Shown: in pieces, positions 23,140 to 31,284 of the stretch
Layout: every line of letters begins with the position of its first letter
How positions within the stretch are numbered: position 1 is the stretch's first letter
Source of the DNA: a virus
IMG/VR virus record: IMGVR_UViG_3300030012_001483
Coordinates: 1-32,140 of that record
Reading direction: 5' to 3' (one strand)
DNA: 32,140 bases
Made by a program: the position numbers and the translations under genes
The notes under the pieces: generated by a model
The model's database searches: none
Told to the model about the DNA's origin: nothing
The model's input: only the letters and a program-made list of their open reading frames with translations

Positions 23140-26100
23140 ATGATAGAATATATACTAAATGGCAAGGCTATAAATGTTAAGCCAGAACACGAACAATACT
23201 TTTTAAAAAATAATCCTAGTGCAACTAAAAAAACTAGTTTTCTTAAAGGCGAGGAAGGTTTAATACCAGATGAGCTAGAGTTTTGGAAAAAACCTAACCA
23301 GCCGGGAAAGTCGCAAGAGGCGGGTCAGCCTCAAACAAATCAACAAACAAATACGGATTCATCTTCGGAAGCTGGTTCTTCGGATTCAGTAGAGACATAT
23401 GAATTAAACGGAAAAAAAATTAACGTAGCTGGAAAGCACAAGAACTACTTTTTAAATAATAATCCTACAGCTAAGAAATATAAAAAGACTACTGGCGAAA
23501 AAGCAAGAGATACTTTTAACAACTGGTGGAATAACACTTTTGTAGGAGCTGCTATGTTAAGAGGTGATATACAAGCTTATGATACTGGTGAAGCTGGTGA
23601 CTTAATGGCAAAAGTAGGTACTGGAAATATGACAATGGGTGATGTTCAAGAGTGGGTTAAAGCAAACGAGTATAAAGCAAAAAACTATAAAGAATCGGCT
23701 AAAATGTTAGCGTTTCAAAAAAAATATTTTGAAGAGGGTGCAACATGGAGTGCTTTTTGGAAAGGATTAAAAGCAGATCCAGCTATGACAGCTGAGTTAC
23801 TTATACAATCGTATAGCACAATGTATCATACTTTTAAAGACTCAGAGAAAGCTAGAAAAGAAACAGCGGTTGGTGCTATAACTGGGTTTGGCGTTGGTAG
23901 TAAATTTAAAAAAATAGGTAGATTTTATGGAGCAATGACTGGAGGTATGGGCGCCCTTGCCGCTGAAATGGAATCATCATTAGCATTTGGAGAATTTATA
24001 CAAGAAGAATTAAATGAAAGAGGTTTAGATTTTACAGACAAAAATATATATAATTTATTAAACTCTAGTGAAGGACAAAAAATAAAAAATAGAGCGGTGG
24101 GTAGAGGTGCTGCTATTGGTTTAGTTGAGGCTATGGCTGGTGGTGGGGCAATGTTAGCTTCTCGTAAAGCATTACAGATTGGTGCTAAACTTAGCCCCGT
24201 TAAAAAAGGTTTTAGAAAAACAGCAACAGGCGCTGCTACTCAGTTATCAGCTGGTACTGTTGGTGTAGGAGTTGAAGCGTTAGGTGGCGGTACTGGTGAA
24301 ATATTAGGTAGGATAGTAGCAGGTCAAGATATGGATCCTGCTGAAATAGGATTTGAAGCTGTAACAGGAGTAGCTGGTGCTCCATTAAGCGTTGGTACCG
24401 CAATGCTTACTAATAAAAATCCTATATACAAAGTAAATGGCGCTAGAGTTTCTTACAAACAACTTCAAGACTTTGTTGACACAGCTAGCGAAGTAGATAT
24501 AGCTAGCGCTAATATACAAATAAAAAACGATCCTACTGGCATAGGAAAAAGAGTTTCTAAAATACAACAAAGAAATGTATTTCAAACACAAATAGATCCT
24601 AGAGTAAGTGGTGATGATAGAAATAAATTAGTCGATCTTGAAATGCAAAGACTAGATTTATTAAGCAAGCAAGAATCTAAAACAAATCAAAACTCTTTAA
24701 AAGATATTAACAAGCAAATAGATGAGATAACCGAAAAGTATAAAGATGTTGATATAACTTCACCAGACGTTGCTAAAAGAAGAAAAACTCGTACAGAAGT
24801 TAAGCAAAATGCTATTATAAATAGGTTAGGTAATACAATTAAATTTGCTGAAGACAATGCTAATTTAGTTGGCAAAGATTTAATAATGGCGGAGTCAGAC
24901 GTTGATGCTCAAGCATATCACGACATGGCTGTTCAAGAGTATAATGAAAGAATTGACGGTGAAATACAAAAGGTACAAAAAAGTAATCTTAGTGTTAAAG
25001 AGCAAAATGAGGCTATACAAAAATTAAATAATAAAAAAATAAAAGATGCTGATGTTAAAGGAGCTGATGGTTTTGTTGTTGGCGATGTTATAATAATTAA
25101 CAAAGATGTAGCATCAAGCACTGGTCAAATAAACGTTGGTGCTCACGAAATACTTCATGCCGTTGTAGCTAAGCATATGCAAAGCTTGAGCGTTGAAGAG
25201 AGAACTAAATTAATTTCTGGCTTTTTAGACGTACTAACAACTGAACAAAAAGAATATATACAAAATAAAATAGATGCTAGAAATAGAGCGTTTAACGAAG
25301 GTATAGATATAAAATCTGATGAAGAAGTATTAACTATATTTTCTGATGGTATAACAAAAGGTGATATAACTTTTAACGAAGGTGTGTTTGATAAAATTAA
25401 AAACTTTATACAAGAGCTACTTAGAAGAGTTGGTATTATAAAAGAGTTTGCTAATGGTAGGCAAGTTTATAATTTTTTAAAAGACTATCAGAAAACAGTA
25501 GATGAAGGTGGTTTGTTAAGCAAGCGAGCGCAAAGGTTGGCTGATGGTGGTGTTGATATAACTGAAACTACTTTTAGTAGAAGTATAGATACTAAAAAAA
25601 TGTCTGATGCTATAGATCAACACGTACCTAAAGATATAACTACTAACGAGCAGTATTTAACTAGAGACCCTAAAACTGGATTAAGCCCTCATGATAATGT
25701 TTTAATTGAAATACTAAGTAAAAATACCCTTGATGGTTATTTAACTAACTTAATTATAGGAGATAAAAGATTAGGTGGCGTTACAGATACGAAAACATTA
25801 TTAGAAGATACTAAGTTTGAGTTGTTAAGAAAAATAAGAAGTGAGTATAAGCCTACTTTAGAAGATGGTAGTTTTAGAAGTTTGTTTAGTTACATATACG
25901 GAAAAAAAGAACAAAGAGGTTTGGGCGGTATAGCGGTTAGAGCTTTAGGTAATATGAAGAAAAAATATCTTCAAAGACCAGATGCTGGCGCAGCACCAAT
26001 AGATATATCAACGCCTGAAGGTAAAGTGACTAGACAGATAGCTGATACTGAAGCAGAAACTTCTTTTGATACACAAGATCTTAGCGTGCCAAAACGGGCT

Positions 26101-29100
26101 AAAGAAGCAAGGCAAACTAAACAACAAGAACAAAGCTTAGAAACAGAAGTAGAAGGCAAGTTAGTTAGTGAAGAACTTAAGTTTACTAAAGAAACAAACG
26201 ATAAAATAAATAACGAAATAAATAAAGTTAATTACGATACTAATCAGCCTTACGAAAATGTTAAGCAAGACATGATGAGTCAAGAAAACCCTAGTGCAGA
26301 TGTTAGGTCTGAGGTAAAGCCTACTGGTATTTTATTTAAATCGTTTGAGATAATAGCTAAAGATGTATTTGGTGTTGATGCTAAATCTACTATGGCTAGA
26401 AAACAAAACTTAAGTAAACAAGAAAATGAATCTGCTAGAAAAGTTATTGCTGACGGTGCTAAAAAAAATAAATCAATAAAAAAGTTTTTAGAAGATATAC
26501 TACCAGATACTAATTTTAATCCTAAAAGTAAAAAGTCTTTAGGTACGTGGGCTGGATTAATACGAGCTTTATATGAACCAGTTTTAAAAGACGGTAAACA
26601 GATTAGATACAATAACATAGTAGCAAGAAAATTAAACTTAGATAAGTTTACAGAAGCAGAGATTGCTGATATGTTTGGCTTAACTCCTGACTATGAATTA
26701 CTACCTTGGAAAAAAGGTTTTAAAGATGGTATGATTAAAGGCGTTGTTGTTGGGGCTGCTGGTTTGTCTATTAATCAATCAATTAGAAAAGCAGCTGACG
26801 CACCAGCTTCGCCTATTAGTATAGGTAAACCAGAGACATCGTTTAGTAGAAGCGTTGAAGAAGGTTTTTATATGGATCACAACGATTTAGCTAAACATTT
26901 TTCAAAAAAGACAGGTGTCCCTGTAGAAGTATTATTAAGCTTTACTAAATATAAAGATCAAAAAGCTACTTATAATGGAATATTTAATCCAGAGACTGGT
27001 GAAACAGTTATGGAGGCTAAGATAAGATTTACTATAAAATTTTTACAAAAATACCCGCAGTTTAGAGAACACTTAATTAACTCTGGAATAGGTGGTGTTA
27101 GTAGATCAACTTATGGAAGTGTTGAATTTATTATGAACATCATTGAATCAGCAATACCATCAAGCAAAAAAGAAATACAATTAATTAGATATAAATATCT
27201 TGTTGATAAAAAGCAGAGATCTAAAAATATAAACTTAACAAAAGAAGAGCAAGCTATAGAGAATAAAAAGCTAGACAATCTTAAAGAATACTTTATGGCT
27301 ATTGAAGAGTTTATAAAAGAAACTCCAGAGGCAGCAGCATTATTTATATCATTTTATCAAGATGGTGGGGCCGCTGGTATGGGTAGCACCGTTAGAGTTT
27401 CGTTTCCTTACAGAATATATACTATCGATCAAAGAACACGTAAACCTAACTTCACTGATCCTATGAGAGAAGAGCACAATCATCCAGCTAATCAAATACA
27501 TTCAGCTCTTTTGTTTGCTGCTATGGAAGGAAATGTTAATGAAACTTTTGATGGAACAAGAGCTTCTGTTATGCAAGGAGCTATTACGTTAGATGCTGAT
27601 AACTTAGTTAACAAGGGCGCTAAAAATATATATGGTGAAAAATTAAATTTAACTAGTGCTGCTCCTGAAGTTTGGTTTAAAAAAATACTACCTAGAATAC
27701 TTAGTGGAGAATTAAAGTTAGCAGATGGTATGGGTGCGGTTGTTAGATTAGCTATACAAGGTGTTAATTTAAACGAGCTAATGATAGTTGGAGAAAACCA
27801 AACTATAGCAGAATACTTTGGAGTTGGATTAGATATTAAAAACCTAACAGACACTCAAATAGAATCTTTAATACCAATTCAAAATGACTTGATAATAAAG
27901 CAAATGACTGGTGAGGTAACTAAGCAAGATGCTACAAATGATATAAAAAAGTTATCTAAGATTAAAAATAAATCTACACTTCAGCAAATAAAAAATAGTA
28001 GAAACATAGTAAAAGCTTTTGATAATAGAAGTAAGTTTAGTAGATCTGAAAAAGAAGTTGGTATGTCTATATTTGACTTTGATGACACTTTAGGTTTTAC
28101 TAAGTCCGGAGTTAGAGCTACTATACCTAATCCTGATAACACGCCTAAGCCAAAACGTAAAGTTATATTTTTAGCAGGTGGTGCTGGTAGTGGTAAAGGT
28201 AATGTTATTAGACAACTTGGTTTAGAACGTATGGGCTTTAAAATAGTTAACTCTGATATATCATTAGAGTGGTTAAAGAAAAACTCTGGTTTACCTGCTG
28301 ATATGCGAGACTTAACTAAACAACAAAGAAGCACGCTTGGAAAGCTTGGTGCTCAAGCTAGAAAAATAGCTAGAGGCAAAATGATGAAATACCAAGGTAA
28401 TGCTAATGGTGTAGTTGTTGATGGTACTGGAGGTAGTGTTAAATCAATGCAGAAGCTCGTAGATGAGTTTAAATCTAAAGGGTATGATGTTAGTATGCTG
28501 TTTGTAGATACTTCATTAGATGTAGCCTTACAGCGTAATAGAGCTAGACAGGAGCGTTCGTTATTAGACATTATAGTAAAGCGTAATCATGAAGCCGTAC
28601 AGAATAATAAGTCTACGTTTCAAAGTATGTTTGGCAATAGATTTATGGAGGTCAATACTGACAAATTAACTATGACTAGCCCTATGCCTAGTAAGCTAGT
28701 AAATCAAATGCAAGACTTTGTTAATAGCTACGAAAAGGTTAGACTTGATGCGGCAGAGTTTGCAGAGCAAGGCGATACTATACTAGAGCAAGGAGGAACA
28801 TTTGACTTTTCTGAATTTAATGATGTTGTTGATGGTACGCCAGGGCCTTTACTTGATAAAGCTAGGCAAAGAATAGATAAGTTTGGAAACAAAGATGTAT
28901 TTGTTTTAACAGCTAGGCCTTCAGCGTCTGAGCAAGCTATACAACAGTTTTTAAAATCTCAAGGCGTTAATATACCAGTAGAAAATATAACTGGTTTAGG
29001 TAACAGTACTGGAGAAGCTAAAGCTTCTTGGGTTTTAGAAAAGTTTGCAGAAGGGTATAACAATATATATTTTGCTGACGACGCTATACAGAATGTTGAT

Positions 29101-31284
29101 GCTGTTAAAAAGGTGTTAGATCAACTAGATGTTAAGTCAGATGTTGTTCAAGCTAAAACTAAATTTAGTAGATCAGCTAGTGATCAATTTAACGCTATAA
29201 TAGAAGAATCACAAGGCACGAGTAGATCAAGAACTTTCTCTTATCAAGAAGCTAAAAAGATGGGTAGAAACAAAGGTTGGTTTAGAATATTTGTACCACC
29301 ATCAGCTGAAGATTTTAAAGGTTTATTATATAGATTTTTAGGTACAGGTAAACAAGGTGATAGGCATATGGAGTTTTTTAAAGCAAATTTACTAGATCCG
29401 TTTGCTAAAGGTATAAGAGCTTGGAATATATATAAACAAGAGATGGTTAATGAATACAAGACTTTAAAAAAATCTCTTCCTGAAGTAACTAAATCTTTAA
29501 CTAAAAAAGTAAGAGGAACTGGATTTACTGTTGATGATGCTATAAGAGTTTTCTTATGGGATAGAGCTGGTATAGAAGTTCCTGGTTTAGATTTACAAAC
29601 AAAAAACAAGTTAATTGATTACGTTAATAAAAACACTGAAGTAAAAGTATTTGCTTATAATTTAAGCAATATATCTAAAGTAAAAGAAGGCTACGTCGCA
29701 CCAGATACTAACTGGTCTTTAGGTAGTATATCAACTGATTTAAATAATGCTGTTAATAAAATAGGTAGAAAGCAATTTTTACAAGAATACTTAGATAATG
29801 TTCAAGCTATATTTACTCCTGAAAACATGAATAAAATAGAAGCTCTATATGGTACTAACTTTAGAGATGCGTTAGAAAATATATTATATCGTATGGAAAA
29901 CGGTGGTAACAGAAGAGTTTCTACTGACAAGAACGTTAACCGTATGTACACATGGATTAATGGTTCTATTGGTGCTATAATGTTTTTTAATATGCGATCT
30001 GCTTTACTGCAAACTATATCTTCAGTTAACTTTATAAATTGGAATGATAATAACATATTTAAAGCAGCGGCCGCATTTGCTAATCAACCGCAGTTTTGGA
30101 AAGACTTTGCAATGTTATTTAATTCTCCACAATTAAAACAACGTAGAGCTGGAATACAAATAGACGTTTCAGCATCAGAGTTATCAAGAGCTTTTGCTGA
30201 TGGCAAAGGTACACCTCAAACTCTTATAAGTTATTTATTAGAAAAAGGTTTTACACCTACGCAAATTGCTGATAGCACAGCTATTGCTTTTGGTGGCGCT
30301 TCGTTTTTTAGAAACAGGTTTAAAACTTATTTAAAACAAGGATTATCAGAACGGCAAGCTAAAGAAAAAGCAATGTTAGATTTTCAAGAAATAGCAGAAG
30401 AAACACAGCAATCATCAAGAGAAGACTTAATATCAATGCAGCAAGCTGGTCCTTTAGGTAGGTTAATATTAGCGTTTCAAAACGTTACAATGCAGTATAC
30501 ACGTTTAACTAAGAAGGCTTTGGCTGACTTGTATTACGGGAGAGGTGATATTAAAACTAATATATCTAAAATAGTATACTACGGGGTTGCTCAAAATATT
30601 ATATTTGCATCGCTGCAATCTGCTTTAGCTATGATAATGTGGGGTGATGATGAAGAAGAAATAGAAAATAGAACAACAAGAACTTTAAATAGTGCATTAG
30701 ATTCTTTCTTACGTGGTACTGGTATATACGGAGCTATAATATCTACTATAAAAAATACTATAATACAAGCTGAAAAACAAAAGAAAAAAGGCTGGGGTAG
30801 AGAAGATGGTAGAACATTATTAGAAATAGTAAACCTGTCCCCACCTCTAGGTAGTAAATTAAGAAAAATATACAACGCTATAAAGACAGAGCAGTATAAT
30901 AAAGGTGTTAGCGAAGAGTTAGGGCTAAGAATAGAAAATCCTACTATATATAAATGGGCCAGTATAATTGAAGCTTTAACAAACATACCAACACAACGGC
31001 TTGTTAAAAAAGCTAATAACTTAGAAGAAGCCATAACTGGTAATCATGAAATGTGGCAAAGAATAATGTTAGGTTTAGGTTGGAGCAAGTGGGACATTGA
31101 TGTAAAAGATGAAGAGCTAGAGGCTGCTAAAAAAAGAGCTAAAAGCAAAAGAAATAAAAACAAACAAAAAGATTCTAAAAAAGAAAAAGTAAAAAGAGTT
31201 AGATGTGTTGCTATTAAAAAAAGCGGTGGTAGATGCAAAAACCAAACAAAGAACAAAAGCAAAAAATGTTATGCGCACCAATAA
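23140..31284 (+). CDS. Giant polyvalent ejection protein: zincin, nested HAD-kinase, Cys3His tail
   Basis: A 2714-residue protein in the T7 gp16 position, probably packaged in the virion and injected with DNA. In order: a duplicated ~28-residue element (4-31, 87-114); a Gly-rich, membrane-active-looking region (240-425); a zincin-like domain with HEILH at 669-673 and a possible third ligand near E728/E729; an uncharacterised region 816-1220 with a hydrophobic stretch near 1198-1215; a region 1239-1630 with EEHNHP at 1444-1449; a HAD phosphatase begun by DFDDT at 1646-1650, interrupted by a P-loop kinase (GGAGSGKG, 1680-1687) and resumed with T1924, K1961 and D1980/D1981; a long helical region 2013-2660; and C2689, C2699, C2710, H2713. 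[TSK]FSRS motifs at 812, 1235, 1633 and 2009 sit at domain borders. No lysozyme or transglycosylase motif was seen. Confidence 0.8.
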   Translation: MIEYILNGKAINVKPEHEQYFLKNNPSATKKTSFLKGEEGLIPDELEFWKKPNQPGKSQEAGQPQTNQQTNTDSSSEAGSSDSVETYELNGKKINVAGKHKNYFLNNNPTAKKYKKTTGEKARDTFNNWWNNTFVGAAMLRGDIQAYDTGEAGDLMAKVGTGNMTMGDVQEWVKANEYKAKNYKESAKMLAFQKKYFEEGATWSAFWKGLKADPAMTAELLIQSYSTMYHTFKDSEKARKETAVGAITGFGVGSKFKKIGRFYGAMTGGMGALAAEMESSLAFGEFIQEELNERGLDFTDKNIYNLLNSSEGQKIKNRAVGRGAAIGLVEAMAGGGAMLASRKALQIGAKLSPVKKGFRKTATGAATQLSAGTVGVGVEALGGGTGEILGRIVAGQDMDPAEIGFEAVTGVAGAPLSVGTAMLTNKNPIYKVNGARVSYKQLQDFVDTASEVDIASANIQIKNDPTGIGKRVSKIQQRNVFQTQIDPRVSGDDRNKLVDLEMQRLDLLSKQESKTNQNSLKDINKQIDEITEKYKDVDITSPDVAKRRKTRTEVKQNAIINRLGNTIKFAEDNANLVGKDLIMAESDVDAQAYHDMAVQEYNERIDGEIQKVQKSNLSVKEQNEAIQKLNNKKIKDADVKGADGFVVGDVIIINKDVASSTGQINVGAHEILHAVVAKHMQSLSVEERTKLISGFLDVLTTEQKEYIQNKIDARNRAFNEGIDIKSDEEVLTIFSDGITKGDITFNEGVFDKIKNFIQELLRRVGIIKEFANGRQVYNFLKDYQKTVDEGGLLSKRAQRLADGGVDITETTFSRSIDTKKMSDAIDQHVPKDITTNEQYLTRDPKTGLSPHDNVLIEILSKNTLDGYLTNLIIGDKRLGGVTDTKTLLEDTKFELLRKIRSEYKPTLEDGSFRSLFSYIYGKKEQRGLGGIAVRALGNMKKKYLQRPDAGAAPIDISTPEGKVTRQIADTEAETSFDTQDLSVPKRAKEARQTKQQEQSLETEVEGKLVSEELKFTKETNDKINNEINKVNYDTNQPYENVKQDMMSQENPSADVRSEVKPTGILFKSFEIIAKDVFGVDAKSTMARKQNLSKQENESARKVIADGAKKNKSIKKFLEDILPDTNFNPKSKKSLGTWAGLIRALYEPVLKDGKQIRYNNIVARKLNLDKFTEAEIADMFGLTPDYELLPWKKGFKDGMIKGVVVGAAGLSINQSIRKAADAPASPISIGKPETSFSRSVEEGFYMDHNDLAKHFSKKTGVPVEVLLSFTKYKDQKATYNGIFNPETGETVMEAKIRFTIKFLQKYPQFREHLINSGIGGVSRSTYGSVEFIMNIIESAIPSSKKEIQLIRYKYLVDKKQRSKNINLTKEEQAIENKKLDNLKEYFMAIEEFIKETPEAAALFISFYQDGGAAGMGSTVRVSFPYRIYTIDQRTRKPNFTDPMREEHNHPANQIHSALLFAAMEGNVNETFDGTRASVMQGAITLDADNLVNKGAKNIYGEKLNLTSAAPEVWFKKILPRILSGELKLADGMGAVVRLAIQGVNLNELMIVGENQTIAEYFGVGLDIKNLTDTQIESLIPIQNDLIIKQMTGEVTKQDATNDIKKLSKIKNKSTLQQIKNSRNIVKAFDNRSKFSRSEKEVGMSIFDFDDTLGFTKSGVRATIPNPDNTPKPKRKVIFLAGGAGSGKGNVIRQLGLERMGFKIVNSDISLEWLKKNSGLPADMRDLTKQQRSTLGKLGAQARKIARGKMMKYQGNANGVVVDGTGGSVKSMQKLVDEFKSKGYDVSMLFVDTSLDVALQRNRARQERSLLDIIVKRNHEAVQNNKSTFQSMFGNRFMEVNTDKLTMTSPMPSKLVNQMQDFVNSYEKVRLDAAEFAEQGDTILEQGGTFDFSEFNDVVDGTPGPLLDKARQRIDKFGNKDVFVLTARPSASEQAIQQFLKSQGVNIPVENITGLGNSTGEAKASWVLEKFAEGYNNIYFADDAIQNVDAVKKVLDQLDVKSDVVQAKTKFSRSASDQFNAIIEESQGTSRSRTFSYQEAKKMGRNKGWFRIFVPPSAEDFKGLLYRFLGTGKQGDRHMEFFKANLLDPFAKGIRAWNIYKQEMVNEYKTLKKSLPEVTKSLTKKVRGTGFTVDDAIRVFLWDRAGIEVPGLDLQTKNKLIDYVNKNTEVKVFAYNLSNISKVKEGYVAPDTNWSLGSISTDLNNAVNKIGRKQFLQEYLDNVQAIFTPENMNKIEALYGTNFRDALENILYRMENGGNRRVSTDKNVNRMYTWINGSIGAIMFFNMRSALLQTISSVNFINWNDNNIFKAAAAFANQPQFWKDFAMLFNSPQLKQRRAGIQIDVSASELSRAFADGKGTPQTLISYLLEKGFTPTQIADSTAIAFGGASFFRNRFKTYLKQGLSERQAKEKAMLDFQEIAEETQQSSREDLISMQQAGPLGRLILAFQNVTMQYTRLTKKALADLYYGRGDIKTNISKIVYYGVAQNIIFASLQSALAMIMWGDDEEEIENRTTRTLNSALDSFLRGTGIYGAIISTIKNTIIQAEKQKKKGWGREDGRTLLEIVNLSPPLGSKLRKIYNAIKTEQYNKGVSEELGLRIENPTIYKWASIIEALTNIPTQRLVKKANNLEEAITGNHEMWQRIMLGLGWSKWDIDVKDEELEAAKKRAKSKRNKNKQKDSKKEKVKRVRCVAIKKSGGRCKNQTKNKSKKCYAHQ
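23149..23481 (+). repeat. Duplicated N-terminal element in the giant protein
   Basis: Residues 4-31 and 87-114 are a direct protein repeat sharing Y-x-LNGK-x-INV, then H-x-x-YFL-x-NNP-[ST]-A. DNA positions are about 23149-23232 and 23398-23481. They are separated by a Gln/Ser/Gly-rich linker. Such paired short elements at the N-terminus could be virion-docking or sorting signals; function unknown. Confidence 0.85.
24892..25494 (+). other. Zincin-like metallopeptidase domain within the giant protein
   Basis: Residues about 585-785. A strand-like VVGDVIIINKD is followed by GAHEILHAVVAKH, giving the HExxH zinc motif (H669, E670, H673). Downstream SDEEVLTIFSDGI offers a Glu (728 or 729) as a third ligand, in gluzincin style. 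Zincins are a recurrent component of phage polyvalent proteins. The motif is clear; activity and target are inferred. Confidence 0.72.
25573..29175 (+). repeat. Four spaced FSRS motifs in the giant protein
   Basis: FSRS is encoded at 25573-25584, 26842-26853, 28036-28047 and 29164-29175 (residues 812, 1235, 1633, 2009), preceded by T, S, K and K. The first three codons are TTT AGT AGA in all four. The final Ser uses four different codons (AGT, AGC, TCT, TCA), which points to selection on the peptide. The intervals are 423, 398 and 376 residues. Confidence 0.9.
28063..29154 (+). other. P-loop kinase nested inside a HAD phosphatase domain
   Basis: Residues about 1642-2005. HAD motif I is FDFDDTL (D1646, D1648). 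Thirty residues later a P-loop NTPase begins: Walker A GGAGSGKG (1680-1687), then VNSD with D1706, VVVDGTGG, and VDTSLDVALQRNRARQERS, a zeta-toxin / polynucleotide-kinase-like pattern with a basic lid. HAD motifs resume after ~1880: motif II FVLTAR (T1924), motif III GEAKASW (K1961), motif IV YFADD (D1980/D1981). The insertion is where HAD caps usually sit. A nucleic-acid-end or nucleotide substrate is conjecture. Confidence 0.78.
31195..31281 (+). other. C-terminal Cys3His zinc-binding-type module of the giant protein
   Basis: The last 29 residues hold C2689, C2699, C2710 and H2713 in the pattern C-x9-C-x10-C-x2-H, inside a Lys/Arg-rich context following a long basic tail. The RCVAIKKSGGRC...CYAHQ form resembles small 'RCxAxTKxGxxC...CxxH' domains (DUF5763-type, from memory). 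It is likely zinc-bound; a nucleic-acid contact is plausible from the charge. Confidence 0.7.

Follow-up and report, generated by a model that had tools for sequence, protein, structure and literature searches.

How phage proteins of thousands of residues cross the narrow tail and then work as separate enzymes is an open question. It is raised here by a gene on the + strand, at positions 23140 to 31284, of the IMG/VR record IMGVR_UViG_3300030012_001483 (the window, that is, the whole stretch of 32,140 nucleotides analysed, which is the entire viral record and itself a fragment of a genome). The gene encodes a giant protein of 2714 residues in which the tetrapeptide FSRS occurs four times. With modest confidence, we favour the explanation that this giant is a modular cargo polyprotein that is cut at its junctions, probably by its own zincin. 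So far, autoprocessing by zincins has been conjectural. With a junction motif that is legible in the sequence, the cut sites can be predicted exactly.

A scan of the window confirmed FSRS at residues 812–815, 1235–1238, 1633–1636 and 2009–2012 (positions 25573–25584, 26842–26853, 28036–28047 and 29164–29175, + strand), and no further copy was found in any frame on either strand of the window. In 20,000 shuffles of the protein, the mean number of copies was 0.0198 and the maximum was 2. The first copy follows the zincin, the second lies ahead of the module with the EEHNHP motif, the third a few residues ahead of the HAD motif, and the fourth directly after the end of the HAD domain; thus, all four border positions described in an earlier analysis made from the DNA alone (the sequence-only reading) hold. 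That reading had also asked whether the copies lie in linkers. In AlphaFold models built with 22 and 33 sequences (the first of modest quality, with a mean predicted local distance difference test score, pLDDT, of 66), three copies are located in segments with a pLDDT below 50, and the third copy in a trough of 64–69, so that all four fall into low-confidence segments or troughs. The even spacing of the copies, in contrast, turned out not to be meaningful: only the 376-residue step between the last two is conserved, because it equals the length of the HAD-kinase module, whereas the other steps vary in homologues.

The homologues comprised 22 IMG/VR relatives found by the protein and 76 loci found by the HAD module, which together gave 64 distinct giant ORFs (open reading frames). 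As a literal conserved motif, FSRS can be ruled out, with 8 copies in the 64 proteins; the unit is FS[KR]. At the four sites, relatives carry peptides such as IKFSKS, MFSKS, KYSKT, KFSKN and IQFSRG, and the consensus near module boundaries is [IV]-[KMQ]-[FY]-S-[KR]-[ST]. The pattern [ILMV]xFS[KR] was found 96 times in the giants versus 17.3 ± 3.9 times after shuffling, and FSK ranks second among the over-represented tripeptides when these are ranked by multiplicity within a protein. No enrichment was observed in the 356 further ORFs on these contigs (7 occurrences versus 6.4 after shuffling), so that nothing points to a use of this peptide in capsid processing. Module boundaries were defined, without use of the motif, by at least 60 extra residues in one homologue between collinear BLAST blocks. 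Of the 283 boundaries so obtained, 40 have the motif at a distance of no more than 15 residues, compared to 4.9 ± 2.3 when positions are shifted circularly (at most 13 among 500 shifts); at places of module gain or loss, the degenerate motif is 5–8 times more common than by chance. The expectation that homologues would carry the motif at borders was thus borne out for its degenerate form and failed for literal FSRS. Two homologues (L018 and L021) have an extra module, about 430 residues long, behind HAD, and the motif is found at both of its ends. Furthermore, the two flanks of the HAD module are more similar within a protein of this family than between permuted proteins (15.4 versus 13.1 ± 0.62; 4 of 10,000 permutations). 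Chance repetition of a short peptide is refuted by these statistics, since the shuffle, boundary and flank-permutation tests all speak against it, and we regard it as negligible.

The sequence-only reading had mentioned short FSRS-like linkers in other phage polyvalent proteins, and indeed the motif recurs in unrelated ones, of phages as well as of prophages. We analyzed 80 loci from IMG/VR, each cut at about 12 kb, that encode an ADP-ribosyltransferase (ART) module of the ART-PolyVal kind; the ART query itself carried FSRD and FSRS, which favoured FS-type matches, but not flank matching as such. In Pseudomonas phage vB_PaeM_USP_18, STLFSRDAITNSAAFKRWFG stands before the ART and GDFDPANRDIRFSRSG after it; Pseudomonas phage F116 has GTFDASTPDILFSRSG, and the ART of a Pseudomonadota genome is flanked by EPRFSLAPP and DIRFSLRRP. 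The giant of Planktothrix phage Pag-Yong1 has no FS-type motif, nor did an anchor search detect an ART motif there. Across phages, the flank peptide varies (YSLR, IDFSD, LGTPA, FARG, FSIRE, ILNQ, RYQR), and it is often alike on both sides of the module. The mean best 5-mer similarity of the two ART flanks was 14.9 within the same protein and 11.8 ± 0.39 for permuted pairs (reached in none of 20,000 permutations); without FS-type motifs, the values were 13.9 versus 11.85 ± 0.59 (9 of 20,000). Some junction peptides recur further along their own ORF, namely LGTPA and IDFSD three times each and FARG four times. Such matched, phage-specific flanks are better explained by sites that evolve together with a protease than by linkers or by docking peptides, the two alternatives weighed below.

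The motif might also belong to the modules themselves, as their final strand or initial turn, and be kept for folding. The N-x-G-x-F ... D-I sequence just before the motif is indeed conserved as part of the ART domain. However, in Dickeya phage JA11 the ART stands alone and stops short of the motif, with the C-terminus GTFKPRTENILE (...TENILE, then the stop) at the place of ...TPDILFSRS in F116; unrelated modules (HAD, ART, the EEHNHP module and the L018 insert) are flanked by the same motif; and the sites in the window are of low AlphaFold confidence. A role in folding is accordingly improbable.

Two further ART loci are of interest in their own right. In L212, the ART has the same stretch, ESQGDNCGTGAGGFQPGNTCAKGGNGQTK (about 28 residues), on either side, an extreme case of flank matching. 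A protein of a Tunturi_5 phage that adjoins the portal gene (L219:1931-5719) contains several ART-like modules with peptides of the ITAS, VTAA or TTAS type between them, perhaps another junction code.

A third possibility is that modules spread by recombination, in which case a short flank would be duplicated, or serve as microhomology, and the peptide would have no molecular function. The codons bear on this directly. The last Ser of the four window copies is written AGT, AGC, TCT and TCA, which the sequence-only reading had taken as selection for the peptide; the variation stands, but the preceding F-S-R is TTT-AGT-AGA in all four copies (TTTAGTAGA is the same in 4/4), as duplicated DNA would be. 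In the family, the motif Ser is encoded by AGT (47%), TCT (29%), TCA (12%) and AGC (12%), all Ser together by 28% AGT, 35% TCT, 21% TCA and 10% AGC. Several ART modules have flanks with the very same DNA sequence, among them LGTPA (L160), IDFSD (L162) and VRYSL (L206), and the motif lies at points of module gain and loss, as recombination would predict. In contrast, the peptide is kept with different codons in SRAPA (L171), SLRTA (L185), SAR (L164) and many other flanks, and the pattern hydrophobic-x-F-S-basic is retained although the surrounding identity among homologues is 20–30%. Some ART flanks look like recent DNA copies, while others keep the peptide through different codons. The codon use supports selection on the peptide plus some relatedness at the DNA level, and recombination without any function of the peptide seems rather unlikely.

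Alternatively, the motif may be a docking or sorting peptide for a virion protein or for an unfolding factor, with several copies for avidity or ordered threading and no cleavage. The position of linear motifs within predicted disordered linkers is compatible with this, co-evolution with a receptor would also yield phage-specific sequences, and the crAss001 cargo is considered to be ejected in a partly unfolded state (PMC10172136). However, the copies lie flush with both module edges rather than at one terminus, and the known capsid signal of the polyvalent protein DarB of phage P1 lies in its N-terminal 30 residues (PMC9024508). Docking is an unlikely explanation, in our view slightly more so than functionless linkers.

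For the favoured polyprotein, a candidate protease is encoded in the giant itself. As the sequence-only reading had stated, the protein has its own zincin motif, HEILH (residues 669–673; positions 25144–25158, + strand); all 62 near-complete giants (62/62) contain HExxH, compared to an expectation by chance of a few per cent per protein according to our own estimate, and both HEILH and a candidate third zinc ligand downstream, Glu729 (positions 25324–25326, + strand), are invariant in a 22-row alignment. The zincin and module 2 folds were not confirmed by the Foldseek search, in which AlphaFold model B had no match in the Protein Data Bank (PDB). In order, the modules would be an ejection region with the zincin, module 2, the EEHNHP module, a polynucleotide kinase/phosphatase-like module and the C-terminal module. 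Short exposed linkers between them would bear the recognition peptide of a protease, FSRS here and [IV]xFS[KR] in the relatives, and cutting, probably just after FS[KR], would release separate enzymes during head assembly or following ejection. The first candidate for the cutting enzyme is the zincin of the giant and the second a maturation protease of the phage; among the proteins of the window, a 32-kb genome fragment, no prohead protease was recognised. One protease that reads every site would keep the peptide the same throughout one protein, and the peptide would drift between phages together with the protease.

As far as can be read from sequences, the predictions for cleavage sites appear to be matched: a linker position, occurrence at both module edges, peptides that are alike within a protein and drift from phage to phage, and a candidate protease nearby. 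A docking peptide need not bracket every module, and a functionless recombination linker would not keep its peptide while the codons change; therefore, processing is favoured. In the earlier proposal of processing sites, the borders, predicted linkers, zincin, recurrence and flank matching thus hold, whereas literal FSRS and the spacing do not and the codon evidence is mixed; from these patterns we infer cleavage. Several observations weigh against it. The motif is present in just 27 of 60 homologues before HAD and in 34 of 59 after it. Elemo gp18 and the giant of podovirus ctfjg026 (both introduced below), from relatives that are cultured or complete, bear a zincin, but FS[KR] is not repeated in them. 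Among the ART loci, which are cut at about 12 kb, a zincin in the covered part of the ORF makes no clear difference to how often the motif occurs. Of 61 codons in the matched ART flanks, 38 are identical versus 22.5 expected, so that a part of the matching may come from duplicated DNA. Finally, according to Iyer et al. (PMC5512222), the N4 virion RNA polymerase (vRNAP) has a zincin, yet is packaged unprocessed.

More tentatively, we consider it possible that tailed phages widely build cargo polyproteins in which modules are bracketed by the peptide of a phage-specific cargo protease and can be swapped only if their ends are re-coded. A junction motif would let the specificity of the protease be predicted for each phage, and it would be an objective guide for splitting polyvalent proteins into their functional units. 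Many of these units are probably anti-defence enzymes. In polyproteins of animal and plant viruses, one protease cuts at one virus-specific recognition peptide at every junction, which is a resemblance only. We know of no tailed phage that has been shown to process a polyprotein with one protease and one peptide.

Among phage systems, one close likeness is to the polyvalent proteins of phages and conjugative elements, likewise very large multidomain proteins that combine enzymes with an HExxH zincin and for which zincin autoprocessing was already proposed (Iyer et al., 2017, PMC5512222). The passages found in that paper mention no junction motif and do not contain the word "linker". The window ORF shares two hallmarks of this class, its size with several enzyme domains and its zincin motif, with a zincin motif (HExxH and a downstream Glu), a HAD domain and a P-loop kinase in one protein of 2714 residues. 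It differs in that no recognised polyvalent Pfam domain (LPD, ART-PolyVal or MPTase-PolyVal) was detected in it, the Pfam matches being AAA/Zeta-type kinase families only. Internal head and ejection proteins that are processed by a prohead protease (gp21 in T4, gp175 in phiKZ and gp245 in SPN3US) also share a phage-specific short motif among several cargo proteins of one phage (PMC5694885). There, the motif ends in Glu (the SPN3US protease cuts after Glu at A-x-E, and those of phiKZ and T4 are analogous; PMC5694885), whereas here it is FS[KR] and repeated inside one giant. The Dar proteins of P1 are antirestriction cargo of the head and are proteolytically processed (DarA at its N-terminus by Pro, and DdrB); there, the cut is single and N-terminal or unlocated. 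No clear FS[KR] pattern was found in DarB, DdrB and DarA, in N4 vRNAP, in crAss001 gp47, gp49 and gp50, or in the phi14:2 giants. In the library of papers searched, outside which most subscription papers lie, we found no account of an FSRS or junction motif or of its phage-specific matching.

The source of the window is a marine phage of the flavobacterial type. Its terminase, portal and a muzzle-like tail protein are supported by PHROG and Pfam. The nearest terminase and portal are those of podovirus ctfjg026, assembled from a Manatee Spring metagenome, and of flavobacterial podoviruses, namely Flavobacterium phage elemo and Cellulophaga phages phi38:1 and phi18:3. We found no basis for assignment to Crassvirales: the muzzle domain scored 25.5, under the cut-off of 27, and the terminase and portal relatives (Elemovirus, Pervagoviridae and Pachyviridae) are not listed under Crassvirales in their records. 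In ctfjg026, elemo, phi38:1 and phi18:3, the last gene of the structural cassette likewise encodes a giant protein, which in phi18:3 is annotated as structural from tandem mass spectrometry (MS/MS). The ctfjg026 and flavophage giants share about 20–25% identity with the family of the window protein across several hundred residues ahead of the zincin. Because of this gene position, the MS/MS annotation and the similarity ahead of the zincin in giants of cultured relatives, the window protein probably travels in the virion, as cargo or for ejection. These relatives differ in the features at issue: phi18:3 gp123 and phi38:1 gp101 have neither HExxH nor the junction motif, and elemo gp18 has HExxH, but FS[KR] is not repeated.

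Beyond the zincin, the EEHNHP of module 3 (residues 1444–1449; positions 27469–27486, + strand) corresponds to EEHxxP in the alignment consensus, with H1446 nearly invariant. The next module (28057–29154, + strand) is, according to Pfam and Foldseek, a HAD phosphatase with an inserted P-loop kinase, similar to polynucleotide kinase/phosphatase; Pfam matches are AAA_33 and Zeta_toxin, and the top PDB matches are bacterial polynucleotide kinase (Pnkp) and T4 Pnkp. A scan of genome contigs with the HAD module gave a single distant match. The optional module of about 430 residues (L018:14351-15643, L021:14396-15721, L020:11369-12703) is bracketed by FSK in 3/3 cases and has conserved NPWCI and GPKRI motifs; that of L018 had no match in isolated phages.

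Another set of junction-like peptides occurs in contigs L172 and L181/L183, which we take to be T4-like. Their small ART begins with KSFTQFITEA or KSFTQFINEA, and a further ITE stands at the place of the FS motif of other phages. Neighbouring small ORFs (L172:5076-6660 and L181:2911-4537) share a capsid-targeting-like N-terminus (FKQFITE, FNQYLTE, FTQFITE; for example FKQFITEDA and FNQYLTEM), and form an apparent cluster of internal head proteins that includes ART-like proteins. The consensus of the T4 prohead protease gp21 is [LI]xE, and such N-termini have a capsid-targeting role. T4-type prohead proteases cut after Glu (PMC5694885). The bracketing of the ART by FITE|A and ITE resembles sites of such proteases, which is suggestive only, the second ITE being one short match in related sequences.

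Both ends of the giant have features of their own. At the N-terminus, the unit Y-x-LNGKxINV ... FLxNNPxA is present in two copies (residues 4–37 and 87–120; positions 23149–23250 and 23398–23499), and it was found in 5 of 62 giants and in no control ORF. The ctfjg026 giant has an N-terminal pair of its own type (AHSLFE..GYTKG.DA). Possibly, such repeat pairs are packaging tags. The C-terminal module (residues 2013–2714; positions 29176–31281, + strand) is conserved in the family and has a weak profile similarity, with a match probability of 38%, to LPD38-bearing proteins. It ends in a Cys-rich stretch, RCVAIKKSGGRCKNQTKNKSKKCYAHQ (positions 31201–31281), possibly a small zinc-binding tail.
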